Shown: piece by piece, positions 24,500 to 37,994 of the stretch
Layout of the letters: each line of letters begins with the position of its first letter
How positions within the stretch are numbered: position 1 is the stretch's first letter
NCBI RefSeq assembly: GCF_001424705.1
Contig: NZ_LMRA01000003.1
Span: 62,001 to 126,000, forward strand
DNA length: 64,000 nucleotides
DNA from: Methylobacterium sp. Leaf465
Lineage (GTDB): Bacteria; Pseudomonadota; Alphaproteobacteria; Rhizobiales; Beijerinckiaceae
Direction of reading: 5' to 3'
Notes under the pieces: model-generated
What the model was told of the DNA's origin: nothing
Database searches by the model: none
The model's input: only the letters and a program-made list of their open reading frames with translations
Made by a program: the position numbers and the translations under genes

Positions 24500-25498
24500 T
24501 CAGGTGACGTAACGGTCGGTGGCGTAGAAGCCGGGGTTCGAGCGGACGAAGTCGATCATCCGGCAGAGGCCGTCATCGATCGACATTCGCGGCGCCCAGC
24601 CCATGGCGCGGCGCGCCAGACCGTTGTCGGAGATCAGCTTGAGCACTTCGCTCTGCTCCGGCCGCATCCGCTGCGCCTCGGTCACGATCGGCTTGTCGAC
24701 ACCCATCAGTTCGAGGATGCGGTGGGCGAACCAGCCGACCGAGTAGGTCTCGCCCGTGCCGAGATTGATCGTCATCCCCTCGATGTCCGGCTGCGAGCCG
24801 GCCGCGAGGAAGCCCGCCACCGTGTCGGAGACGTAGGTCATGTCGCGCTCCGGCGTCAGGGAGCCGAGACGGATCTCGTCCCGGGCGAAGGCCTGCGAGA
24901 TGATGGTCGGGATGAAGGCGCGGGCACTCTGGCGCGGCCCGTAGGTGTTGAAGGGCCGCAGGGTCACCACCGGCAGCTCGAACGAGCGGGCATAGCTCTC
25001 GGCGAGCTTGTCGGCGGCGATCTTGGAGGCGGAATAGGGAGACTGCCCCTGGAGCGGGTGGGTCTCGTCGATCGGCGTGCGCAGGGCCGTCCCGTAGACC
25101 TCCGAGGTGCTCGTATGGACGATCCGCCCGACGGCGCTGCGGCGCCCGGCCTGGAGCACGTTCAGGGTGCCCTCGATGTTGGCGCGGACGTAGCTGCGCG
25201 GCGCCTCGTAGGAATAGGGTATCGCGATCAGGGCGCCGAGGTGCAGCACGACGTCCAGGCCCTCGAGGGTCTGGTAGATGAAGTCGCTGTCCTCGATGTT
25301 GCCGAAGGCCACCGTCATCGCGGCCCGGACCTCGGGGTCGAGGAAGTCGAGGTTGCCGACCCGGGCGCTGGAATTGTAGCGCACGATCGCCGTGACCTCG
25401 GCGCCGGCCCGCACCAGGGCGTCCACGAGGTGGCTGCCGATGAATCCGCCGGCGCCGGTCACCGCGACCCGCTTGCCCTGCCATGCTGTTCCGTCCAT
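24500..25498 (-). CDS. NAD-dependent nucleotide-sugar epimerase/dehydratase
   Basis: 332-residue extended SDR. Seen: VTGAGGFIGSHLVDAL (NAD), VVHTSTSEVYG-type strand, catalytic YSASK, and RPFNTYGPRQSARAFIPTIISQAF. It resembles 4,6-dehydratases/4-epimerases of the LegB/WbpP group (AIVRYNSS after the second strand). It follows the PelA-type hydrolase by 128 bases on the same strand, at the end of the pel run. Pel is rich in GalNAc/GlcNAc, and some pel loci carry a UDP-GlcNAc 4-epimerase (PelX); that role is plausible here but unproven. ATG at 25498 has GGGAG 7 bases upstream. Confidence 0.85.
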   Translation of the reverse strand: MDGTAWQGKRVAVTGAGGFIGSHLVDALVRAGAEVTAIVRYNSSARVGNLDFLDPEVRAAMTVAFGNIEDSDFIYQTLEGLDVVLHLGALIAIPYSYEAPRSYVRANIEGTLNVLQAGRRSAVGRIVHTSTSEVYGTALRTPIDETHPLQGQSPYSASKIAADKLAESYARSFELPVVTLRPFNTYGPRQSARAFIPTIISQAFARDEIRLGSLTPERDMTYVSDTVAGFLAAGSQPDIEGMTINLGTGETYSVGWFAHRILELMGVDKPIVTEAQRMRPEQSEVLKLISDNGLARRAMGWAPRMSIDDGLCRMIDFVRSNPGFYATDRYVT

Positions 25499-25626
25499 CT
25501 CATGCTCCCCAACGGCTTTACCGAAACACAGTTTCAAGTAGTTCAGCGCACGGTCAGGATCTGCGCAATCGACACAAACGGATTAGGAAGCTTTCAGCGG
25601 GATTTCGGGCGTGGGCCGAAGGATGC

Positions 25627-26598
25627 TCAGCGCTCAGCACGGGCGTGCGGCTCGCGCAGGACCCGGTCGAGCAGGATCTGTCCGACGTAGGGGCGGTGCC
25701 CGAGGGCGCGTTCACGGGTGTAGATCTCGCGAATGGTCGCGCTGTCCTCGGCGTCCCAGTAATCCAGGCTGAGGATCGGCACCGGCGGCTCCGCCTCGGC
25801 GAGGGGGCGCAGGGCCTGCCGGTGCGGGTCGAGTTCGCGGGGCTCCGTCCAGCGGTAGCCGTTCGCTGGGGCGTCGTAGGTCGTCAGCAGGCTCTCGGCG
25901 ACGACCCCGTCGACCTGCCCGATGAGCTCGGGCAGCAGGGCGTAGCCGCGATTCATCAGCAGCATCCGGTCGGGATGGCGCCGGCGGATGGTTCGGACGA
26001 GGTCGATGGCGGCCGAGCGCATGCCGGCATAGCGCTCGGGGTCGGTCTGCTCGAGATGGGGCGGGGTGTCGAGGGTGTCGAAGAACAGCCCGGAGAACCC
26101 GCGTTCCAGCAGAGCCGGAATCGCGACGTCCAGGATCAGGGCACGCCAGGCGGGCCGGCGCACGTCGCACAGCACGGTGTCGGGCCAGTTCGGGTTCTCG
26201 CCGAGGAGGAGATCCGGGTCGTCGAGCTGCGCGAACAAGGGACTCGTGCGCTTGATCTCGCCGAGGCTGAGATAGCCGAGCACCTCGGTTCCGAGGTCCC
26301 GCATCGGCGTCAGGGGGCTCTTGAAGCCCGGATCGAGCACGACGAGGTCGAAGCCCTCGAATGCGGCCGGCTCCAGGTCTTCGCCGTAGAACAGCGTCCA
26401 GGCCAGATGGGGGTGGCGGAGCCGGTCGCGCGCGCGGGCCGGCCGGTCGAGGAGCAGGCCCGCGGCCCCGAGGCCGGCGAGCAGCCGCAGGACGCTTCGG
26501 CGCAAGATATTGGGGCGCAGGATGCTGGGATGCAGGATGCTTGGACGCAGGATGCTTGGGCGCCCGACGCTGCGGCGTCCATCGGCGGGATCACGCAT
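25627..26598 (-). CDS. PelA-type / GH114-like endo-polygalactosaminidase
   Basis: 323 residues with a TIM-barrel glycosidase of the GH114/GH166 group, the fold of the PelA hydrolase domain that cuts alpha-1,4-linked galactosamine polymers. Seen: HLAWTLFYGED, DLVVLDPGF, GYLSLGEI, GFSGLFFDTLDTPP, VAESLLTTYD and ILSLDYWDAED. Signal-like helix at ~28-42 (SVLRLLAGLGAAGLLLDRPARA) suggests export. The N-terminus before it is a tandem repeat (SILRP)n. Classical PelA (~950 residues) also has a deacetylase domain; none is present here. It overlaps pelG by 8 bases, so it belongs to the pel operon. Confidence 0.8.
   Translation of the reverse strand: MRDPADGRRSVGRPSILRPSILHPSILRPNILRRSVLRLLAGLGAAGLLLDRPARARDRLRHPHLAWTLFYGEDLEPAAFEGFDLVVLDPGFKSPLTPMRDLGTEVLGYLSLGEIKRTSPLFAQLDDPDLLLGENPNWPDTVLCDVRRPAWRALILDVAIPALLERGFSGLFFDTLDTPPHLEQTDPERYAGMRSAAIDLVRTIRRRHPDRMLLMNRGYALLPELIGQVDGVVAESLLTTYDAPANGYRWTEPRELDPHRQALRPLAEAEPPVPILSLDYWDAEDSATIREIYTRERALGHRPYVGQILLDRVLREPHARAER
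26500..26559. repeat. 15-bp tandem repeat inside the PelA-type hydrolase gene
   Basis: Four 15-bp units of the form (A/G)(C/T)GCAGGATGCTTGG, the outermost more diverged, in frame with the gene and encoding repeated S-I-L-R/H-P. It sits between the start codon and the signal helix, so copy-number change would lengthen the N-region without breaking the frame. Confidence 0.85.
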
Positions 26599-28036
26599 CG
26601 CTCGACCTTCTGAATCGGAAGTAGCGGCGAACCGGCCGGGCCCGTGCCTCGGCCGGGCGCAGGGACGTGTTGTTGGTGACGAAGGCATGGAAATGCAGCC
26701 AGGGCAGCTCGTGGGCGAGGAGCGTCACCGCGAGGAGGAACGTGAGGGCCGAGGCGAACAGGTTGCCGTATCCGAAGAACGGGAATCCGAGGGGCAGGAG
26801 GGCGGCGGTGAGCGTTCCGTTCAGGATGCAATACGTCGCCGAGACCGCGAGGGCGTGGCGGCGCAGGTCGAAGTAGAGCAGGAAGATGAAGCAGAAGGAG
26901 GCGCTGGTCTGGAACACCATTCCGACCAGGGCCGCCCGCAGGATGCCCATCTGGCTCGCCCGCAGTCCGAGGGGTTCGATCGCCACGTAGGAGACCAGGA
27001 TGGCGATGAGGGCGACGGCCGCGAGGGCGATGAACAACCCGGACAGCTTGGCCATGACGAAGCGCGACAGGCGTGCCTGCTTTCGCGCGAGGTCGCGACG
27101 GCTGACCCCGTGGGCGAGGCTGCCGTAGAAGGCGCGGCTCAGGCGGAAGAAGTTGGTCTCCACGTGGACGAAGAACACCGCCAGGATGGGGATCGACGCG
27201 AGCTGCGCCCAGAACATCGGCGTGTCGTAGTTCGGCATGGTCCGGAAGGCGCCGCCCACTGTGGTCACGCCGATGGGCGCGGCGACCCACATGATGAGCT
27301 TGTCGACCCAGAGGCCGAGGGCGCAGGTGAGCCCGATCAGCGGCAGGTCCCAGTGCGTGCGCAGGGACCGCGCCAGCGCGGCATCGGGCACGAGCGCCAC
27401 CCCGTATTCCTGCAGCAGGCGGCGGGCGAGGACGAGGTCGACGACCGTCAGCCCGATGTTGAAGGCCGTGAGGAGCCGGAGCGGCTCGCTGCTCGGGGCG
27501 ATCGCGATGAGCGCGACCATGACGGCCGCACCGGCGCCGAAGGCCACGGCGACGATGACGTGGCTCCGGATCGCGCCCATGAAGGGGATCAGGAGCCAGG
27601 CCGCGCCCATCAGCAGCAGGTTCTGCAGACCGGCCACCGTATCCGGGCCGGGCAGGTCCGCCGCGAACAGGTAGAGCGGGCCGGCGACGACGAGGGCCGC
27701 GGCGGCGAAGAGGGCCTGCGCGGCGACGAACGCGTAGGTGACGCTCGTGTCGCGCTTCAGCCAGACCTGGTCCGAGACGAAACGCGTGCAGACGAAGGCG
27801 ATCGGGCCGGTGAGAATCGCCGAGATCAGGGCGTTGTAGATGATGACCGAGCGGAAGAGCGGCAGTCCGGGACAGTCGTCGGTGGGACAGGCGGCGAGAT
27901 CGATGCCGCCGATCGCCAGGACCGTGAAGATCCACGGACCCGCCACCAGCAGGGCCGCGTAGACGTAGGCTCCGGCGGTGCTGGTGAGGGAGCGCCCCTG
28001 CGTCATGCGCTCGAGGGCGAAGCCTAGGCCGGCCAT
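26591..28036 (-). CDS. pelG: PelG, inner-membrane exopolysaccharide transporter
   Basis: 481 residues, about 12 hydrophobic helices, MOP/flippase-like. PelG works with PelD/E/F to move Pel polymer across the inner membrane. Seen: start MAGLGFALERMTQGRSLTSTAGAYVYAALLVAGPWIFTV, VETNFFRLSRAFYGSL, and QMGILRAALVGMVFQTSASFCFIFLLYFD, all typical of PelG. A charged C-terminal tail (PAEARARPVRRYFRFRRSSD) extends past the last helix. GGGAGGATTCC precedes ATG; the gene overlaps pelF by 13 bases and the hydrolase gene by 8. Confidence 0.9.
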   Translation of the reverse strand: MAGLGFALERMTQGRSLTSTAGAYVYAALLVAGPWIFTVLAIGGIDLAACPTDDCPGLPLFRSVIIYNALISAILTGPIAFVCTRFVSDQVWLKRDTSVTYAFVAAQALFAAAALVVAGPLYLFAADLPGPDTVAGLQNLLLMGAAWLLIPFMGAIRSHVIVAVAFGAGAAVMVALIAIAPSSEPLRLLTAFNIGLTVVDLVLARRLLQEYGVALVPDAALARSLRTHWDLPLIGLTCALGLWVDKLIMWVAAPIGVTTVGGAFRTMPNYDTPMFWAQLASIPILAVFFVHVETNFFRLSRAFYGSLAHGVSRRDLARKQARLSRFVMAKLSGLFIALAAVALIAILVSYVAIEPLGLRASQMGILRAALVGMVFQTSASFCFIFLLYFDLRRHALAVSATYCILNGTLTAALLPLGFPFFGYGNLFASALTFLLAVTLLAHELPWLHFHAFVTNNTSLRPAEARARPVRRYFRFRRSSDA

Positions 28037-29640
28037 GGAATCCTCCCGATCTCCGCCGCCGGACCGTCATCCCGCAGGGATTGAGAGCTTCGGGGGGCTG
28101 GTGGATCGAGCGAGGCCGGGTCGAGCGAGGCCGGGTCGAGCGAGGCCGGGTCGAGCGAGGCCGGGTCGAGCGAGGCATAAAGCGCCTCGTAGAGCCCGAC
28201 GACCCGGTCCTGATCGAACACCGTACGGATGCGCGCGCGCAGGCTCCGGCCCATGCGCGCCCGCAGGTCGCCGTCGCGCAGGAGGCGCGCGAGGGCATCG
28301 GCCGTCGCCTGCGGGTCGCAGGCGCGCACGACGAATCCGCCCGCCGTGTCGGAGTCGGGCCCGTCCGGTCCTTCGAGGATCTCGCGGCACGAGCCGACAT
28401 CGGTCGTCACCGCGGGCACGCCGGCGGCTCCCGCCTCCAGGATCGACAGGGGCTGGGCCTCGCTGATGCTGGTGAGGGCGATGACGTCGGTCTGTCCGAA
28501 ATAGGTCTTCACGTCCCGAACCCGGCCGAGGAACCGGACGGTGTTCTGCAGGCCGAGCTGGCGCACCAGGGCCCGGCACTCGGCCGCGTAGGCGGGATCC
28601 TCGTCCTCGGGCCCGATGATGATCGCGTCGACGTCGGGGACCTGACGGCGCAGCAGGCCGGCAGCCTCGATGAAGGTGCGGATGTCCTTGATCGGGACGA
28701 GGCGGCCGACCAGGAGGACGGTGGGGCGGCGCGGCTGCGGACCGGGCGGGATGTCGGCGAACTGGTCGAGGCGGATGCCGTTCGGGATCATGCGCAGCTT
28801 CGCCTCGGCTGCCCCGTCCTCGATCTGGTAGAGCTGGTTGGTCCGGAACTGCGTCGTGATGAGGTCGGCGACGTCATAGGTGATCCGCGCCATGGCGTTG
28901 AAGGCGTTCAGCCAGACCCGTCGCAGCTCGGGAGCCGTGCCGGTGACGTCGAACCCGCCCGCGCCGGACTCGTAGATCCAGTCGGCGACGGAGAGCTCGA
29001 TCCGGCGCTCGTTGGTGTAGATGCCGTGCTCGGTCACCACGAAGGGCCGCCCCGTCAGGGCCTTGGCCCGGGCCCCGAACAGTCCCGGATAGCCTGTCGA
29101 GATGGCGTGATAGATGCGGGCCGGCGGGATCGGCGCGGTGGCGATCGCGATGAGGCTGCGGGCTAGGAAGCGCCAGGTCCAGAAGAAATCGACGAGGGGC
29201 GCCCCGGGGAGCATCTCCTCGTAGATCCGTTCGAGCGCGGTCCAGGCCGGGCGCGAATCGAGCAGGGCCCGCTGCCGGAGATCGCACCGGTCGAGCTCCC
29301 GGACGCACCGGACCCAGGCCTGCGCGCCCCCATCGGTGAGGACGGCCTGCAGGTCCCGGATCAGCGGCGCGATCGCTTCCCGCCCCCGCAGGAGCGGCAG
29401 GCGTCCCGGCGGGCAGGCGTCGATGGGCACGTCGACGATGCGCTCGACGTTCGCCGGAAGGTCGAACTTCCGGGTCCGTTCCTGGTCCGAGGTCGTGAAG
29501 GCCACGAGGCTGAAGCGCTTGTCCGGAAAGCTGCGGATGAAGCTGTCGGTCCAGGAGGAGACGCCGCCGAGGAGGTAGGGGTACCCGCCCTCCACGAGCA
29601 GGCACACGTCCGATGGGCCGGAGGCGGTCTGCGTACTCAC
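28024..29640 (-). CDS. pelF: PelF, GT4 glycosyltransferase of Pel synthesis
   Basis: 538 residues; cytoplasmic polymerising GT4 enzyme using UDP-sugars. Seen: VCLLVEGGYPYLLGGVSSWTDSFIRSFPDKRF (PelF N-terminal signature), FVVTEHGIYTNERRIELS, RMIPNGIRLDQF, VLLVGRLVPIKDIRTFIEAA, and the E-x7-E retaining-GT motif SISEAQPLSILEAG. Starts with GTG at 29640, overlapping the pelE stop by 4 bases. The last ~45 residues are not part of the family fold: perfect SLDPA repeats encoded by a 15-bp tandem repeat, then a proline/serine-rich end. Confidence 0.92.
   Translation of the reverse strand: MSTQTASGPSDVCLLVEGGYPYLLGGVSSWTDSFIRSFPDKRFSLVAFTTSDQERTRKFDLPANVERIVDVPIDACPPGRLPLLRGREAIAPLIRDLQAVLTDGGAQAWVRCVRELDRCDLRQRALLDSRPAWTALERIYEEMLPGAPLVDFFWTWRFLARSLIAIATAPIPPARIYHAISTGYPGLFGARAKALTGRPFVVTEHGIYTNERRIELSVADWIYESGAGGFDVTGTAPELRRVWLNAFNAMARITYDVADLITTQFRTNQLYQIEDGAAEAKLRMIPNGIRLDQFADIPPGPQPRRPTVLLVGRLVPIKDIRTFIEAAGLLRRQVPDVDAIIIGPEDEDPAYAAECRALVRQLGLQNTVRFLGRVRDVKTYFGQTDVIALTSISEAQPLSILEAGAAGVPAVTTDVGSCREILEGPDGPDSDTAGGFVVRACDPQATADALARLLRDGDLRARMGRSLRARIRTVFDQDRVVGLYEALYASLDPASLDPASLDPASLDPASLDPPAPRSSQSLRDDGPAAEIGRIPWPA
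28106..28176. repeat. 15-bp tandem repeat in the 3' end of pelF
   Basis: TCGAGCGAGGCCGGG repeated four times without a mismatch, plus 11 bases of a fifth. It is in frame and encodes SLDPA units. Perfect identity suggests recent expansion and probable copy-number variability between strains. Confidence 0.93.
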
Positions 29641-30560
29641 GGCAGGGCCTCCCGCGGGAGGGGCGGGGTCGGAGCGCCGCTCTCGGCCTCGATGGCGGCC
29701 AGCAGCGCCCGGGCGGCCATGCTCTCCGGTTCGGCCGCCAGGGCCTGGCTCGCGGCGACGCGGGCGGCCGCCATCTCCGTGCGGGCCTGCAGGGCCTCCG
29801 TCAGGCCCGACTCGGCGTAGGCGCGGCGCGCCGCCGCGAGGGCGAGCCAGGGGCCGGCCGCGCCCGGGGCCTGGGCGACGGCCACCTCCAGGGCGATGAG
29901 GTCCCGGGTGAAGCGGGTCTGGAGCTTGGCGAGGACCGTCGAGGCCAGCACGCGCACGGAGGCGTCGGTATCCTGGAGCGCGGCGCGGATCACATGGGTG
30001 AGGCACGGATCGAAGCGCCGCCCCACGATCGCCAGCGCCTCGAACTTGGCTTCCTTCGCGCCGCCATCGAGGATGTCCGCCAGGGGCACCACACTGCTGG
30101 CCTTGCCGACCCGGAGACGCCCATCGCGCAGGTCGCTGCTGAGCCGGCCGCAATCCGTTCGCGGGTCGAGATGACCCTCCGTCTCGAGCCAGGTTCCGAA
30201 AGCCTCGGCCGGTCGCGGAGGCGCCGCGCCGCGATCGAGGAGGGCGAGGCCGATCGCCAGGAGGGTGCCGAAGGGACCGCCGATGAAGGTCCAGAGGGTG
30301 AGGTGCGCCAGCCGCGCCGCCTCGCCCGGTGCCTGAGCGTCCTGCAGGGTGCGCAGGCCGAGGATCAGGCACAGGCCGACATGCCCCGCGAGGACGACGA
30401 CGGGACCCACGAGGGCATGGAGCAGCGCCGCGGCGAGGGCGAGCTCCCCGAGCGCCGTGGCGAGGGCGACCACGGTCGGGGAACGGGGGACGCGAAGGTG
30501 CGCGTCCCAGGCGGTCCGGGGCCGCGCGGCGGCGAGCGGATCCGGGACGTCGATCAGCAT
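29637..30560 (-). CDS. pelE: PelE-like membrane/TPR protein
   Basis: 307 residues (P. aeruginosa PelE is ~330). Two or three hydrophobic helices at ~30-110 (VVALATALGELALAAALLHALVG, VVVLAGHVGLCLILGL, LWTFIGGPFGTLLAIGLALL), then a cytoplasmic helical-repeat domain (FEALAIVGRRFDPCLTHVIRAALQDTDASVRVLASTVLAKLQTRF..., AGPWLALAAARRAYAESGL). PelE bridges PelD and PelF in the synthase complex. Order and overlaps (7 bases with pelD, 4 with pelF) support the call more than sequence alone. Confidence 0.82.
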   Translation of the reverse strand: MLIDVPDPLAAARPRTAWDAHLRVPRSPTVVALATALGELALAAALLHALVGPVVVLAGHVGLCLILGLRTLQDAQAPGEAARLAHLTLWTFIGGPFGTLLAIGLALLDRGAAPPRPAEAFGTWLETEGHLDPRTDCGRLSSDLRDGRLRVGKASSVVPLADILDGGAKEAKFEALAIVGRRFDPCLTHVIRAALQDTDASVRVLASTVLAKLQTRFTRDLIALEVAVAQAPGAAGPWLALAAARRAYAESGLTEALQARTEMAAARVAASQALAAEPESMAARALLAAIEAESGAPTPPLPREALP

Positions 30561-31543
30561 CGCTCCGCCCCGGCCACCAGGCTCCCCATGGCCAGCGCCA
30601 GGTCCAGCGCGCGCGGCGCGGCTTCGGCGAGGGTCTGGTTGGGCAGCAGGCCCTCGATCAGGAGCAGGCCGCGCGGGCCCGGGGCGCCGTGGGCCGGAAG
30701 GGCGACGGCGAGGACCGCGCCGTCCGGCAGTCTCCGGGCATCCGCGGCGCGATCCCGGCGCCAGAGCCGGTCCGGCGCCTGCGCGACGGCTTCGGCCAGC
30801 ATGCCATCGATGGCCGGTGCGGTGGCCCGGTCGCGCGCTCCGCCCTCCGCGACCGTGGCCAGGGGGGCGAGGCCCCGGGGCGTGGCCGCGTAGACCGTGA
30901 GTCGGGAGGCTCCCACGAGCCGGCGGCCCAGCTCCGCCAGGCTCGTCGCCAGGCGGAGGCCATCCTCGGCGTCCAGGCAGGCGAAGGCCTTGCTCACGCT
31001 GCCGAGGGTGCGGGTCTCGGCGGCGAATCGGAGTTCGAGGCGACCGATCTCCGCCATGGCGGCGGAGAGGCCCCGGCCGAGGCTGTCGGCCTCGTCGAGG
31101 GCGTCGTCCCGCTGCTGGCGCAACTCGGCCGCGTGGAAGATGTGGAGGCTGCGCAACCCGCCGAGGACCAGGGCGCAGGCCAGCCACGCCGTCGGCTCGG
31201 CGACGACCTGGCGTGAGTAGGCGTAGTAATCCTGGGTCGCGAGCTGCGAGGGCAGTGCCGAGCTGTACAGCGCCAGGGTCGCCACCAGGGTGGCGAAGAC
31301 GCCGCCCGCGAGGCCGTACTGCGCCGAGATCAGGATGACCGGGATCCAGAACGGCCGGGGTGTCATCCAGGCATAGCGGCTGCCGTCGAAGACCAGGTGG
31401 TCGATCAGGACCAGGAGCAGGACGAGCCCGATGGCCTCCGGGACGTAGCGCCGCCATCCCAGCAACGGGCTGGACCGATCCTGATCCGATGCGCCCCGCT
31501 CACCCGCCGCCGCAGTCGTCACCGCATGGCCCCCCACAGGCAT
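30554..31543 (-). CDS. pelD: PelD-like protein lacking the c-di-GMP-binding GGDEF domain
   Basis: 329 residues. Four membrane helices at ~30-135 (EAIGLVLLLVLIDHLVF, PFWIPVILISAQYGLAGGVFATLVATLALY, AWLACALVLGG), a coiled linker (LRQQRDDALDEADSLGRGL) and a GAF domain (~160-325: LGSVSKAFACLDAEDGLRLATSLAELGRRLVGASRLTVYAA...PRGLLLIEGLLPNQTLAEAAPRALDLALAMGSLV). It ends directly after the GAF fold. P. aeruginosa PelD (455 residues) continues with a degenerate GGDEF domain whose RxxD I-site binds c-di-GMP; that module is absent. An R-A-A-D string at ~255 lies inside the GAF region and is probably chance. First gene of the operon; the promoter should lie in 31544-31894. Confidence 0.83.
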   Translation of the reverse strand: MPVGGHAVTTAAAGERGASDQDRSSPLLGWRRYVPEAIGLVLLLVLIDHLVFDGSRYAWMTPRPFWIPVILISAQYGLAGGVFATLVATLALYSSALPSQLATQDYYAYSRQVVAEPTAWLACALVLGGLRSLHIFHAAELRQQRDDALDEADSLGRGLSAAMAEIGRLELRFAAETRTLGSVSKAFACLDAEDGLRLATSLAELGRRLVGASRLTVYAATPRGLAPLATVAEGGARDRATAPAIDGMLAEAVAQAPDRLWRRDRAADARRLPDGAVLAVALPAHGAPGPRGLLLIEGLLPNQTLAEAAPRALDLALAMGSLVAGAERC

Positions 31544-33319: not shown

Positions 33320-34780
33320 ATGAGGATCGGCTGGCGCTTCCTCGGTCTCTGGGCCTTTGCCGCCGCCGCGACCGCCTACGCCCTCTCGCCCGGCTCCGAG
33401 GAGCAGCTCGCGATGCTGGCGCGGGACGGGCGAACCAGCGAGGCTGCGAGCGAGTTGGCGCGGCTCCTCGCCCTGGGACGCCGGGATCCGGCCTTCCTCG
33501 CGGCGGCCGCGCGCGCCCTCGAGTCCACCGGCAACCGGGGGCTCGCGGAGGATCTCCTCGAGCGGTACCTAGTGGAGCGGCCCGGGGACGTGCAGGTCCT
33601 GGAATGGCTCGCCAATCTCTACCGGGCGTCCGACGACCGTCCGGCCGCCACCCGTACCCTGGTGACCCTGGTGGCCCTGGCCCCGACCCGGCCGCGCCTG
33701 TGGGCGCTCCTCGACCTCTACCGGGCCCAGGAGCGCCTCGACGAGGAGCGCGAATTCCTGAAGGGCATCGTCGACGAGACGCTGCTGCGGCCCGTGGACG
33801 TCGAGCGCCTGGGCATTCTCCTGTCCTGGGCCGGGGAGCGCGCGGCGGCGTTGGACGCCCTGCGCCGGGCCGACGCGCTGATGCCGGCCACGCAGGAGAT
33901 CGGTCGGATCGTCCTGTTCGACCTCCTTCTCGCCGAAGGCCTGCGGGAGGAGGCCGCCGAGCGCGCCGGCCATTGGGTCGCCGATTGGCGCGACAAGCCC
34001 TGGCTCGGCGTGCACGTGGTGCGCCGGATGGCGGCGCGGGGGGACCCGGCTTCCGCCGTCGCCCTCGGCGCGCAGGTGATCGCCCTCAGCCCGGCGACGC
34101 GCTTCTACCTGGCGCGGGTGGTGGCTGAGGACGGGAGCCGGCGCATCGCCACCCTGCTCCTCGAAGACTGGGCGCAGGGCGGTCCACAGCCTTCCTCCGA
34201 CGCGGTGGCCGGCTACGTGGCGGCCGCCTATGCGGTGGGAGACGTCGCGGCGCTCTGGCGCAAGGCCTCGCGGATCCTCGCCGAACCCGGCTGGTACGAG
34301 GCGCAGATCGCGATCGTGGAAGCCCTGGCCCTGCGCTACGGCCTCGATGCGATCGCGCCGCTGCGTCCCCGCCTGCCCTGGGCCGCCCTGCAGCGCCAGC
34401 CCCTGTTCGCCGCGCGGCTGGCGCTGCACGAGGGCAACCCGTTCCTGGCCCGCCGCGTCCTCGAATCCGTCGATCCGGAGACCCTGACCGCTCCGGCCCG
34501 GATCGAGTGGGTGGCGCTCGTCAGCCTGATCTCCGGCGACGCGGCGGCCCTGGCGGCCCTGGGCGATCTCCTGCGCCGGGACCGGCTCCCGACCGACCTG
34601 CTCCCGGTCCAGCTGCGGCTGGCCGAGCGCCTCGGCCATGGCGGAGAGCAGCGCCTCGGCCTCGACGCCCTGCGTCGAAGCGCCCTCGCCCCGGCGACCA
34701 TCGCGCGGCAGGCGCAGGCCCAGCAGGCGCAGGTTCAATCCACAGCGAAGGCCGGGCTCGACGCCCGGAGTGTGCAGTGA
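33320..34780 (+). CDS. TPR-repeat protein of the exopolysaccharide export operon
   Basis: 486 residues. Signal or anchor helix at 5-22 (WRFLGLWAFAAAATAYALS), then helical repeats through ~430 (LARLLALGRRDPAFLAAAARALESTGNRGLAEDLLERYLVERPGDVQVLEWLANLYRASDDRPAATRTLVTLVALAPTRPRLWALLDLY...), and a Gln/Ala-rich tail. The repeats resemble the periplasmic TPR half of PelB/AlgK-type scaffolds, but no outer-membrane beta-barrel follows. It precedes the Wza-like gene by 80 bases. A scaffold that guides polymer or recruits modifying enzymes is likely by analogy. Confidence 0.78.
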   Translation: MRIGWRFLGLWAFAAAATAYALSPGSEEQLAMLARDGRTSEAASELARLLALGRRDPAFLAAAARALESTGNRGLAEDLLERYLVERPGDVQVLEWLANLYRASDDRPAATRTLVTLVALAPTRPRLWALLDLYRAQERLDEEREFLKGIVDETLLRPVDVERLGILLSWAGERAAALDALRRADALMPATQEIGRIVLFDLLLAEGLREEAAERAGHWVADWRDKPWLGVHVVRRMAARGDPASAVALGAQVIALSPATRFYLARVVAEDGSRRIATLLLEDWAQGGPQPSSDAVAGYVAAAYAVGDVAALWRKASRILAEPGWYEAQIAIVEALALRYGLDAIAPLRPRLPWAALQRQPLFAARLALHEGNPFLARRVLESVDPETLTAPARIEWVALVSLISGDAAALAALGDLLRRDRLPTDLLPVQLRLAERLGHGGEQRLGLDALRRSALAPATIARQAQAQQAQVQSTAKAGLDARSVQ

Positions 34781-34860: not shown

Positions 34861-36162
34861 ATGTCGAGATGCCGAGCCGTCGCCTTCGCGGTGCTCACCC
34901 TTCTGGCCGGTCGGGCGGCCCTGGCCGAGGGCGGGCCGGTCCTCCGCGCCGGGGACCGGCTCAAGATCACCTTCTATGAGACCATGGAGATCCCCAATCC
35001 GGCGCCCGGCGACAAGGGCCAGTCCGCGGGCGCCGCCGCGGTGATCCAGACCTTCTACCAGCGGGTGGACCTCTCGGGCGAATACGCCGTCGAACAGGGT
35101 GGCGCCCTCTCGCTGCCGTTCTTCGGCTTCGTCCCGGCGGCCGGAAAGCCCCTGGAGACGCTCAAGACCGACCTGATGGGCGTCTTCGAGACCGCCTTCG
35201 GCCGGCACGGCGGGGTCACGGTCGGCCTCGTGCAGCGTGCGCCCGTCTTCGTCGTGGGGTCCGTCCGCGCGCCGGGTGCCTACCCGTACGCGGGCGGCAT
35301 GATCGTGCTGCAGGCGGTGGCCCTCGCGGGGGGGCGCGACAAGGATCCCGCCACCCTCTCGGGGGTGGTGGAGACCCTGCGGGAACGGGAGCGGGAGGAC
35401 GGTGCCCGCACCCGGCTGAAGCGCGCGCTGGCGCGCAAGGCCGCGCTGACCACGGGACGGATGGGCACGGAGGCGCAGGAGCGGCTTCGGACCCTGGCGG
35501 GACCCGAGGAGGCGACGGCTCTCCTGGGCGCCGAAGCGAAGGTGCTGCGCCTGGAGGCGAGCCTCCAGACCAGCGACGAGGGATCGCGCAAGGCCGCGGC
35601 GGACGCCTCCGGCACCGAAGTCGACCTCCTGCGCAAGCGCCTGGAGACCTATGGGGCCCAGATCGCGGCCCGCGGCGACCGGTTGCGCACCATGGAGGCG
35701 CTGTTCTCCCGGCAGGTGGTCGAGAGCGAGCGCGTCGCCGACGTCCGCCGCGACTTCATCGACATGGAGGGACGCCGGCGCGACTACGAAGTCGGGATCC
35801 TGCAGGCGGAGCAGCGCCAGAGGATGGCCCGCGAGGCCCTGGACCAGGGCAATGCCCGGCACCGCCTCGCCGCCGAGCGCGAGATCGCCCTGATCGATGC
35901 CGAGATCGCCTCCGCCGAACGCGCCCTGTCGACGGCCTCCGTCGTGGGCGCGACGATGAGTGCGGGCTGGGCACGCGATCCGGTCCTCGCCTATCGCATC
36001 GTGCGCAGCGGGGCCGGCGGCGCACAGGTCCTCTCCGTCACGGAGACCGACACCCTCGAGCCCGGCGACGTGCTCAAGGTCGTGATCGATCCGCGCGGAG
36101 ACGAGCATCCCCGGAACGCCACGGCCGAGGCGACCCCATCCCGGGCCGACGCGGCACCCTAG
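34861..36162 (+). CDS. Wza-like polysaccharide export protein with coiled-coil insert
   Basis: 433 residues. Signal peptide (AFAVLTLLAGRAALA) without a lipobox cysteine. Polysaccharide-export (PES) domain at ~22-105 (LRAGDRLKITFYE, YAVEQGGALSLPFFGFVPAAGKPLETL), SLBB-type segment (VFVVGSVRAPGAYPYAGGMIVLQAVALAGG), then a long charged coiled coil (~150-355) and a closing TLEPGDVLKVVI strand. Wza/KpsD/GumB proteins export capsule or EPS in Wzy- or ABC-dependent systems, not in Pel, which uses PelB/PelC. AAGGAG is 9 bases upstream of ATG. Confidence 0.83.
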   Translation: MSRCRAVAFAVLTLLAGRAALAEGGPVLRAGDRLKITFYETMEIPNPAPGDKGQSAGAAAVIQTFYQRVDLSGEYAVEQGGALSLPFFGFVPAAGKPLETLKTDLMGVFETAFGRHGGVTVGLVQRAPVFVVGSVRAPGAYPYAGGMIVLQAVALAGGRDKDPATLSGVVETLREREREDGARTRLKRALARKAALTTGRMGTEAQERLRTLAGPEEATALLGAEAKVLRLEASLQTSDEGSRKAAADASGTEVDLLRKRLETYGAQIAARGDRLRTMEALFSRQVVESERVADVRRDFIDMEGRRRDYEVGILQAEQRQRMAREALDQGNARHRLAAEREIALIDAEIASAERALSTASVVGATMSAGWARDPVLAYRIVRSGAGGAQVLSVTETDTLEPGDVLKVVIDPRGDEHPRNATAEATPSRADAAP

Positions 36163-36880
36163 CCGTCGGATCGAACGCCGGACGGTCGGCCCTGGCCGGC
36201 GGCGGATCGCGGATGGGTCGCCGGGCTGGTCGCCCGCGGCCGGCCGTGGGGCGGGAGCGCCGCCGCGCATGCGGCGGACCGGCGGGCCAGCATCCGCACC
36301 GCGCCGAGCCGCCGGCGGAAGGTCTCGGGCCCGGCCTGCGCGATTCGCCGCTCGTCGCGGCCGTCGAGGGTGCGGCAGGCGTCCGAGAGCGCCGTGAAGC
36401 CGAGCGTCCCCGCCGATGAGACGCAGCTTCGGGCTTCGAAGCGCAGGCCGTTGCGAGCCTCCTCGGTCTCGGCCTCGTACAGGAAGCGCGTGTCCAGTTC
36501 CTCCGCGAAGGCCAGGAGGAGGCCGGTGGTGCGCGGCGCGCCGATAGGGCGACGATCTCGTCTTACGACCATCTCGGTTTTCGATGCGGCGATCGACGAG
36601 GCCGGATTCCGCGGCCGCCTGGTCGGCGGGCGGCATCGCCCCCGACCCCGAGCACGGCCATTTGTCGACCATCCGGTCGAGGGCGGCCCGGTGGAACGGC
36701 TTGCCGATAGGGTCGTCCATCCCGGCCTCCCGGAACATCCGGATCTGCTCGGGCAGGACGTTGGCCGTCATGGCGATGATCGGCGCCGCCAGGCGTTCGG
36801 CTTCGTTGGATACGATCGGCGACCTGCGCGTGCGCTCGCCTGGAGCGGAGCCGTGACCGGGCAGGCCACGCATCAACCTC
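36163..36880 (-). pseudogene. Remnant of a hybrid histidine kinase (receiver end plus Hpt)
   Basis: On the minus strand, ~36813-36660 encodes the second half of a receiver (APIIAMTANVLPEQIRMFREAGMDDPIGKPF, with the conserved T-A and K-P), preceded by degraded TRLMRGLPGHG. The Hpt domain follows in another frame (36572-36159): FEARSCVSSAGTLGFTALSDACRTL. In functional Hpt domains this reads A-H-S-L-K-S-S-A-G; the phospho-His is Arg here. Kinase core and receiver start are absent, so it is a dead 3' fragment. Its place beside the EPS genes hints at a lost sensory input. Confidence 0.75.
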
Positions 36881-37154: not shown

Positions 37155-37994
37155 ATGCTTGAGGTCGTTCCGGACCGGGCAGATCATCATCTGAGATCTT
37201 CGGAATCCGCGCATGCGTTGCATCTCTACGACGCGGCATCCGAGCGCCTGGCGCCGCAGATCACCTCGACGCCGGCGATCAAGCAGGCGGTGGTGATGGC
37301 TGGCGGCAAGGGGACGCGGCTCCATCCCTACTCGGCGCTGTTCCCCAAGCCCCTGATGCCGCTCAACGACATGCCGGTCCTGGAGCTGCTGCTGCGCCAG
37401 ATGAAATGCGCGGGCATCACCGACGTGATCCTGGCGGTGAACCACCTCAGTCACCTGCTGGAGGCGTTCTTCCGGGACGGCGAGCGTCTGGGCCTCAACA
37501 TCCGCTACCGGCTGGAGGACCAGCCCCTCGGCACCGCCGGCGCCCTCGGCGCCATGCTGGACGACCTCGACGAGGCCTTCTTCGTCACCAACGGCGACCT
37601 TCTCACGACCCTCAACCTCAAGAACATGATGGCGGCCCATCGGGAGGCCGGGGCCGACATCTCGATCGGCGTGTTCGAGCGCGAGGTGAAGATCGATTTC
37701 GGCCTGATCGAGATCGACGAGCGCAGCCGCATGACGGCCTATCGCGAGAAGCCGAAGAGCACGCACTTCGTCAGCATGGGCGTCTACGCCCTGTCGCGGG
37801 AGGCGGTGCGCCAGCACCTCGTGCCCAACACCTTCCTCGACATGCCCAACCTCATCGCCCAGGTGAAGGCGGCCGGCGGCGACGTGGCCTGCTTCCACGA
37901 GGATTGCGTCTGGCTCGACATCGGGCGTCCCGACGACTTCGCCCTCGCCCAGCAGATGTTCGTCTCGGATCGCAGCCTGTTCCTGGCCTCGTGA
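37155..37994 (+). CDS. Sugar-1-phosphate nucleotidyltransferase
   Basis: 279 residues. After a ~40-residue N-terminal extension comes the NTP-transferase signature AVVMAGGKGTRLHPYSALFPKPLMPLNDMPVLELLLRQM, then NGDLLTTLNL (metal Asp), SMGVYALSREAV and WLDIGRPDDFALAQ. It makes an NDP-sugar (RmlA/GlmU-N/mannose-1-P guanylyltransferase-like; base and sugar not predictable). AGGAGGGCGCA precedes ATG. The next epimerase gene starts 4 bases after its stop, so the two form a sugar-nucleotide unit. Confidence 0.88.
   Translation: MLEVVPDRADHHLRSSESAHALHLYDAASERLAPQITSTPAIKQAVVMAGGKGTRLHPYSALFPKPLMPLNDMPVLELLLRQMKCAGITDVILAVNHLSHLLEAFFRDGERLGLNIRYRLEDQPLGTAGALGAMLDDLDEAFFVTNGDLLTTLNLKNMMAAHREAGADISIGVFEREVKIDFGLIEIDERSRMTAYREKPKSTHFVSMGVYALSREAVRQHLVPNTFLDMPNLIAQVKAAGGDVACFHEDCVWLDIGRPDDFALAQQMFVSDRSLFLAS

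Follow-up and report, generated by a model that had tools for sequence, protein, structure and literature searches.

The PelD homologue of Methylobacterium sp. Leaf465, encoded in the 64,000-nucleotide stretch of DNA that we analysed (the window), lacks the c-di-GMP receptor domain of classical PelD. The short form is distributed across a clade and is under selection, the neighbouring PelF and PelG are intact, and the export and modification genes of the cluster have been remodelled. We consider it likely that the protein is a real, selected PelD composed of a transmembrane part, a coiled coil, and a GAF domain, that its GGDEF domain and I-site were lost in an old remodelling of the Hyphomicrobiales cluster, and that it acts as a scaffold with PelE and PelG without c-di-GMP gating. 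The four genes at the core of the locus, with gene starts assigned mechanically, are as follows.

30554..31543, minus strand: pelD homologue, 329 codons from an ATG start; transmembrane part at about residues 30-136, coiled coil at about 137-177, GAF-like domain at about 178-329, no GGDEF domain
29637..30560, minus strand: pelE homologue, 307 aa; matches PelE-like proteins of other pel loci in BLAST, and no Pfam family
28024..29640, minus strand: pelF, GT4 glycosyltransferase, 538 aa; NCBIfam PelF equivalog NF038011 at 409.9 bits against a cut-off of 100; DUF3492 and GT1
26591..28036, minus strand: pelG, predicted transporter of the synthase, 481 aa; Pfam PelG at 298.9 bits; sole PelG of the genome

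pelD adjoins pelE, pelF, and pelG, and two proteins of a classical pel operon, the PelF glycosyltransferase and PelG, were both recognised, the former above the NCBIfam cut-off and the latter by Pfam. No second PelD or PelG was found elsewhere in the genome (5.06 Mb). The start of pelE (30560) precedes the end of pelD by 7 bases, the reverse-strand overlap being GCGATGCTGATCGAC. Because pelE begins before the pelD stop, a GGDEF domain hidden by a frameshift is impossible, and its concealment downstream of pelD was ruled out by this overlap together with a stop-masked six-frame scan. The nearest named relative found was Methylobacterium sp. Leaf125 (L032), the PelD of which is 96% identical; it was also the sole match when contigs were scanned with the PelD protein alone as the query. 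Compared with the Leaf125 gene, pelD showed a dN/dS of 0.16, the transmembrane part changing most slowly (0.09) and the GAF part giving 0.21. This purifying selection indicates that the short form is maintained. A decaying or artefactual gene, arising from a recent truncation of pelD or a wrong assembly or frame in a non-functional cluster, is therefore hardly credible: in addition to this selection and the pelE overlap, the same architecture recurs in 12 loci of several families, and PelF and PelG are intact. Such decay would nevertheless accord with the rarity of the cluster, PelG being present in 5 of the 298 genomes of the family and, of the listed members of the genus, in Leaf465 only, and with a hydrolase homologue in Leaf125 that looks frameshifted.

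The Pfam model PelD_GGDEF (PF16963) was silent in the Leaf465 genome and positive on L100, L101, and L103. Its silence proves nothing because intact alphaproteobacterial PelDs are also missed by it; hence, we built our own C-terminal HMM. The window PelD was aligned with PelDs adjoining PelG in other genomes, and separate HMMs were made for the shared N-terminal part and the C-terminal (GGDEF) part, the latter being trained on ten intact alphaproteobacterial PelDs. The C-terminal HMM matched all intact alphaproteobacterial PelDs tested with 70-168 bits, namely the ten training sequences, five further loci, and L113, via which the PelD of L044 was confirmed as intact. Profile-profile comparison with the GGDEF region of gammaproteobacterial-type PelD (E 1.8e-5) identified the modelled region as a GGDEF relative, and RxxD was found at the corresponding place in nine of the ten C-termini; the PelD of L047 (L047:13435-15012) keeps the GGDEF part and lacks the motif. 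No match to this HMM was obtained in the window ORFs, in the stop-masked six-frame scan of the window, or in L032, L038-L040, L042, L053, and L093-L098. Weaker matches in whole genomes were ordinary GGDEF proteins, and those in the Leaf465 genome (at most 26.8 bits) all lay in the reading frames of ordinary GGDEF proteins. Aligned with classical PelD, the window PelD terminates at the end of the classical GAF domain, and it contains no degenerate GGDEF domain with an RxxD I-site. These results confirmed the absence of the c-di-GMP receptor domain, from which we infer that the window PelD does not bind c-di-GMP.

The remaining membrane part is homologous to the N-terminus of PelD, as indicated by BLAST matches to classical PelDs and by the N-terminal HMM, which gave 347.8 bits for the window PelD with its own sequence in the training set. 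E36, P64, G77, and G128 were invariant across 22 PelD sequences. The identity between short and classical PelDs was 34% in the transmembrane part and 13% in the GAF part; this difference would follow if the function common to both forms resided in the membrane part, and it fits a retained scaffold role. The Pfam GAF_3 match at residues 199-323 was weak (E 0.0066, below the cut-off). In profile alignments, the C-terminal part of the window PelD aligned in register with the classical GAF domain (E 0.0016, with a probability of only 16%), and no alignment with the GGDEF part was obtained (E 0.33 and 0.53). An AlphaFold model built from two near-identical sequences had a mean pLDDT of 48, with low confidence in the membrane part and ten-residue means of 45-76 in the C-terminal half. 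Residues 165-329 of this low-confidence model matched solved GAF folds with Z up to 12.7; none of the best 50 fold matches was a PelD entry of the PDB, which carries no weight for a model of this confidence, and a PDB sequence search with the window PelD returned no PelD relative. From the weak GAF_3 match, the in-register profile, and the fold matches of the low-confidence model, we assigned a cytoplasmic GAF domain.

The preliminary description, made from the letters of the DNA, had given the protein four helices and a GAF domain, without the receptor domain and not as a truncation artefact. The missing domain and the exclusion of an artefact were both borne out, the latter by the pelE overlap, the dN/dS, and the relatives with the same architecture. 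The GAF assignment agrees with the fold matches above, and the helices are supported by the alignment and by the secondary structure of the model, the membrane part of which has low confidence. As outcomes that would refute it, the description had named a GGDEF-like fold within residues 150-329, where residues 165-329 aligned with GAF domains instead, and c-di-GMP binding by the GAF domain, for example through an R-A-A-D string, which was not borne out at the level of sequence. R-A-A-D (residues 265-268) was rejected as an I-site: it lies in a GAF loop of the model, does not align with the I-site, is common only to the window and Leaf125, and is missing in the family relatives L039, L040, and L042.

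The GAF-like domain itself might have been turned into a switch, either for another ligand or for c-di-GMP at a new site, and its retained fold under purifying selection would suit such a role, though its divergence outpaces that of the membrane part. We regard this as very unlikely, given its 13% identity to classical GAF domains, the absence of any recognised conserved ligand motif, and the restriction of R-A-A-D to the window and L032. Moreover, the GAF part has been lost in L095, suggesting that it is dispensable there; the PelD homologue of this locus (L095:8576-9373) is a membrane part without GAF and GGDEF domains, encoded after pelG. Against our preferred reading of an ungated scaffold, the divergence of the GAF-like domain and the low confidence of the structure model have to be counted, and a c-di-GMP site may still be present in PelD or in another cluster protein.

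The distribution of the short form was investigated in genome samples that were subsets. PelG was found in 21 of 385 class genomes and in 7 of 347 order genomes above the cut-off, including Leaf465. In Hyphomicrobiales, a PelD homologue was found for all 11 genomes with PelG and for Leaf125, and the GGDEF part was present in none of these 12 proteins (the window, L032, L038-L040, L042, and L093-L098), which belong to several families. Wherever a PelD was visible in the remaining loci of alphaproteobacterial type, it was intact, except in L053 (G128). The PelD of L053 (L053:5482-6474) lacks GGDEF in a locus that is classical in other respects and keeps the PelB barrel, and this loss is apparently independent of that in Hyphomicrobiales. 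In quick trees of concatenated PelF and PelG, in which L048 and L052 were not counted, the short-PelD loci of the order formed two clades of 5 and 6 rows, each with 100% SH-aLRT, and L053 stood separately. The two clades were not joined in these trees, and the short PelDs may have had one origin or several.

The classical alphaproteobacterial pel operons (L043-L050 and L054-L057) share with the window PelE, PelF, PelG, and a homologous PelD membrane part. Their PelDs measure about 455-467 aa (510 in L047) with GGDEF, against 329 aa here, and the PelB barrel, a deacetylase homologue, and PelC were each found in several of them; the window instead encodes a Wza-like export protein and a hydrolase-only PelA. 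The remaining genes of the cluster are as follows.

25627..26688, minus strand: GH114-type glycoside hydrolase, the hydrolase part of PelA only; Pfam GH114 at 61.3 bits; true start perhaps 26598
24500..25537, minus strand: SDR protein closest to the NAD-dependent 4,6-dehydratase LegB (396.6 bits, below the cut-off of 475); 70-73% identical in L040, L041, and L098
31895..32722, minus strand: LuxR/NarL-type regulator upstream of pelD; conserved in L032, not found in other clusters
33320..34780, plus strand: TPR protein, 486 aa, distantly PelB-TPR-like
34861..36162, plus strand: Wza-like polysaccharide export protein with Poly_export and SLBB, in the place expected for the PelB barrel and PelC
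37155..37994, plus strand: sugar-1-phosphate nucleotidyltransferase; Pfam NTP_transferase at 126 bits; 64-66% identical in L039, L040, L042, and L098
37999..38928, plus strand: second SDR protein, epimerase/reductase type; 46-52% identical in L039, L040, L042, and L098
38963..40789, plus strand: glmS, glutamine-fructose-6-phosphate transaminase; a glmS gene also lies close to the L040 cluster

The genes from pelD through pelE, pelF, pelG, and the GH114 hydrolase to the LegB-like SDR lie on the same strand. No PelB barrel was detected in any of the 11 short-PelD genomes of the order (TPR-region matches below 31 bits); the Leaf465 genome gave only TPR-region matches below 24 bits, against 756.9 bits in the control G051. 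PelC gave no HMM match in the window or in the other short-PelD loci, using a model that also misses several classical loci. A relative of the PelA deacetylase was not found in the Leaf465 genome, G1299, or G1326, the controls G051 and G1266 scoring 792 and 1221 bits; in G476 and G561 it is present and misses the stretch that bears the ASHTxxHPF motif in relatives, with the same gap in G535. At locus level, the deacetylase relatives at L040:1052-3016 and L039:955-2898 have lost the ASHTxxHPF stretch and show an altered DGDGW motif, and they are an apparent intermediate of deacetylase loss. Genes for a Wza-like protein are present in the window, L032, L038, L039, L040, L041, and L097, and none was found in the retrieved stretches of L093-L096 and L098. 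The protein resembles Wza/EpsE-type export proteins in having Poly_export and SLBB; however, these are paired with Wzx/Wzy or the XrtA system and not with a PelDEFG-type synthase.

Clusters of the window's subtype have the nucleotidyltransferase, the LegB-like dehydratase, and the second SDR in common, and close relatives of the first two were absent from the other loci examined. The cluster may therefore supply a sugar nucleotide of its own, perhaps that of a 6-deoxy-N-acetylhexosamine. The missing deacetylase and the added sugar-nucleotide genes call for caution in assuming a partially deacetylated alpha-1,4-GalNAc polymer, and the product may not be Pel. Tentatively, the cluster could represent a hybrid Hyphomicrobiales exopolysaccharide system, in which a c-di-GMP-free PelDEFG-type synthase is combined with Wza-like export and a cluster-encoded 6-deoxy-N-acetylhexosamine in place of GalNAc.

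Several local differences were observed between the two Methylobacterium loci. Tandem repeats of 15 bases occur towards the 3' end of pelF, at 28106-28176, where 4.7 perfect copies encode a repeated S-L-D-P-A, and close to the GH114 start, at 26486-26563; the pelF of Leaf125 is without the extra copies, indicating that the array length varies in frame. The GH114 homologue of Leaf125 (L032:14820-15900) appears to shift frame partway, by mutation or sequencing error, and the window copy is open. In Leaf125, a 1173-aa hybrid histidine kinase (L032:2012-5533) adjoins the cluster. Its counterpart in the window is no more than a short similar stretch at about 36159-36572 (81% over 117 residues) and thus looks like the remnant of such a gene.

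The Leaf465 genome contains 29 GGDEF matches and 11 PilZ matches, and the 11 further short-PelD genomes searched contain 2 to 38 GGDEF matches each. c-di-GMP signalling thus exists in the genome, and the short PelD is not due to absent c-di-GMP. With the signal available, the switch could have been kept and moved to PelE, the TPR protein, the Wza-like protein, a PilZ protein from outside the cluster, or the LuxR-type regulator, the gene of which lies directly upstream of pelD. We consider such a transfer unlikely. The cluster proteins tested gave no match to PilZ, GGDEF, EAL, or any other family known to bind c-di-GMP, none of the 11 PilZ matches lies on the contig carrying the cluster, and the PelD-type GGDEF model found only the weak matches described above. 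In addition, the LuxR/NarL-type protein lacks the c-di-GMP motif of VpsT, W[FLM][TS]R, and its gene was found only in the clusters of the window and L032.

PelD of P. aeruginosa shares with that of the window a membrane part of four helices, a coiled coil, a GAF domain, and the pelD-pelE-pelF-pelG gene order. Its degenerate GGDEF domain with the RxxD I-site (R367 and D370) and R402 (Whitney 2012, as reviewed in PMC8461298) is lacking in the window PelD; around the gene, pelA and pelB are absent or have been replaced, and pelC was not detected. The same review, citing Whitfield 2020b, describes a membrane complex of PelD, PelE, and PelG that recruits PelF, and gives PelDEFG assembly as unaffected by c-di-GMP binding. 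Streptococcal PelD, like the window PelD, has TM and GAF parts without GGDEF, in bacteria without diguanylate cyclases (PMC7112168, PMC12345266), and in S. intermedius this GGDEF-less PelD is still required for Pel production (PMC12345266). However, a degenerate SDR domain is usually found at the N-terminus of streptococcal PelD, one that is missing in the window PelD and in S. thermophilus JIM8232, and the hosts are Gram-positive bacteria without c-di-GMP enzymes, whereas the Leaf465 genome encodes 29 GGDEF proteins. No report of a GGDEF-less PelD in Proteobacteria was found in the open-licence literature; the streptococcal case being already published, the new part is the occurrence of such a PelD in c-di-GMP-rich Gram-negatives. 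The initial interpretation thus stands only in part. The short PelD is not confined to one genome, since all 12 PelD homologues of the order lack GGDEF, with a separate loss in L053, and the streptococcal examples preceded it (PMC7112168, PMC12345266). Nor can Pel synthesis be taken for granted in a cluster that has no PelB barrel or PelA deacetylase, in which PelC was not detected, and which has sugar-nucleotide genes of its own.

Under the preferred reading, PelD would serve as a membrane scaffold that holds PelF together with PelE and PelG. The post-translational c-di-GMP gate on PelD would be gone, and synthesis would not be gated by c-di-GMP binding there; control may have moved to transcription, for example, through the upstream LuxR-type gene in the Methylobacterium loci, or to another GAF input. 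A PelDEFG set without the receptor domain in bacteria that use c-di-GMP would mean that the scaffold and switch roles of PelD have been separated by evolution. The cluster also shows that the core of the Pel synthase is able to combine with more than one set of export and sugar-supply genes. Since these partners vary, a match to pelF or pelG should not be read as Pel under c-di-GMP control. The loss of GGDEF in PelD and the replaced export and sugar-supply genes suggest that the polymer is probably made and controlled unlike classical Pel.
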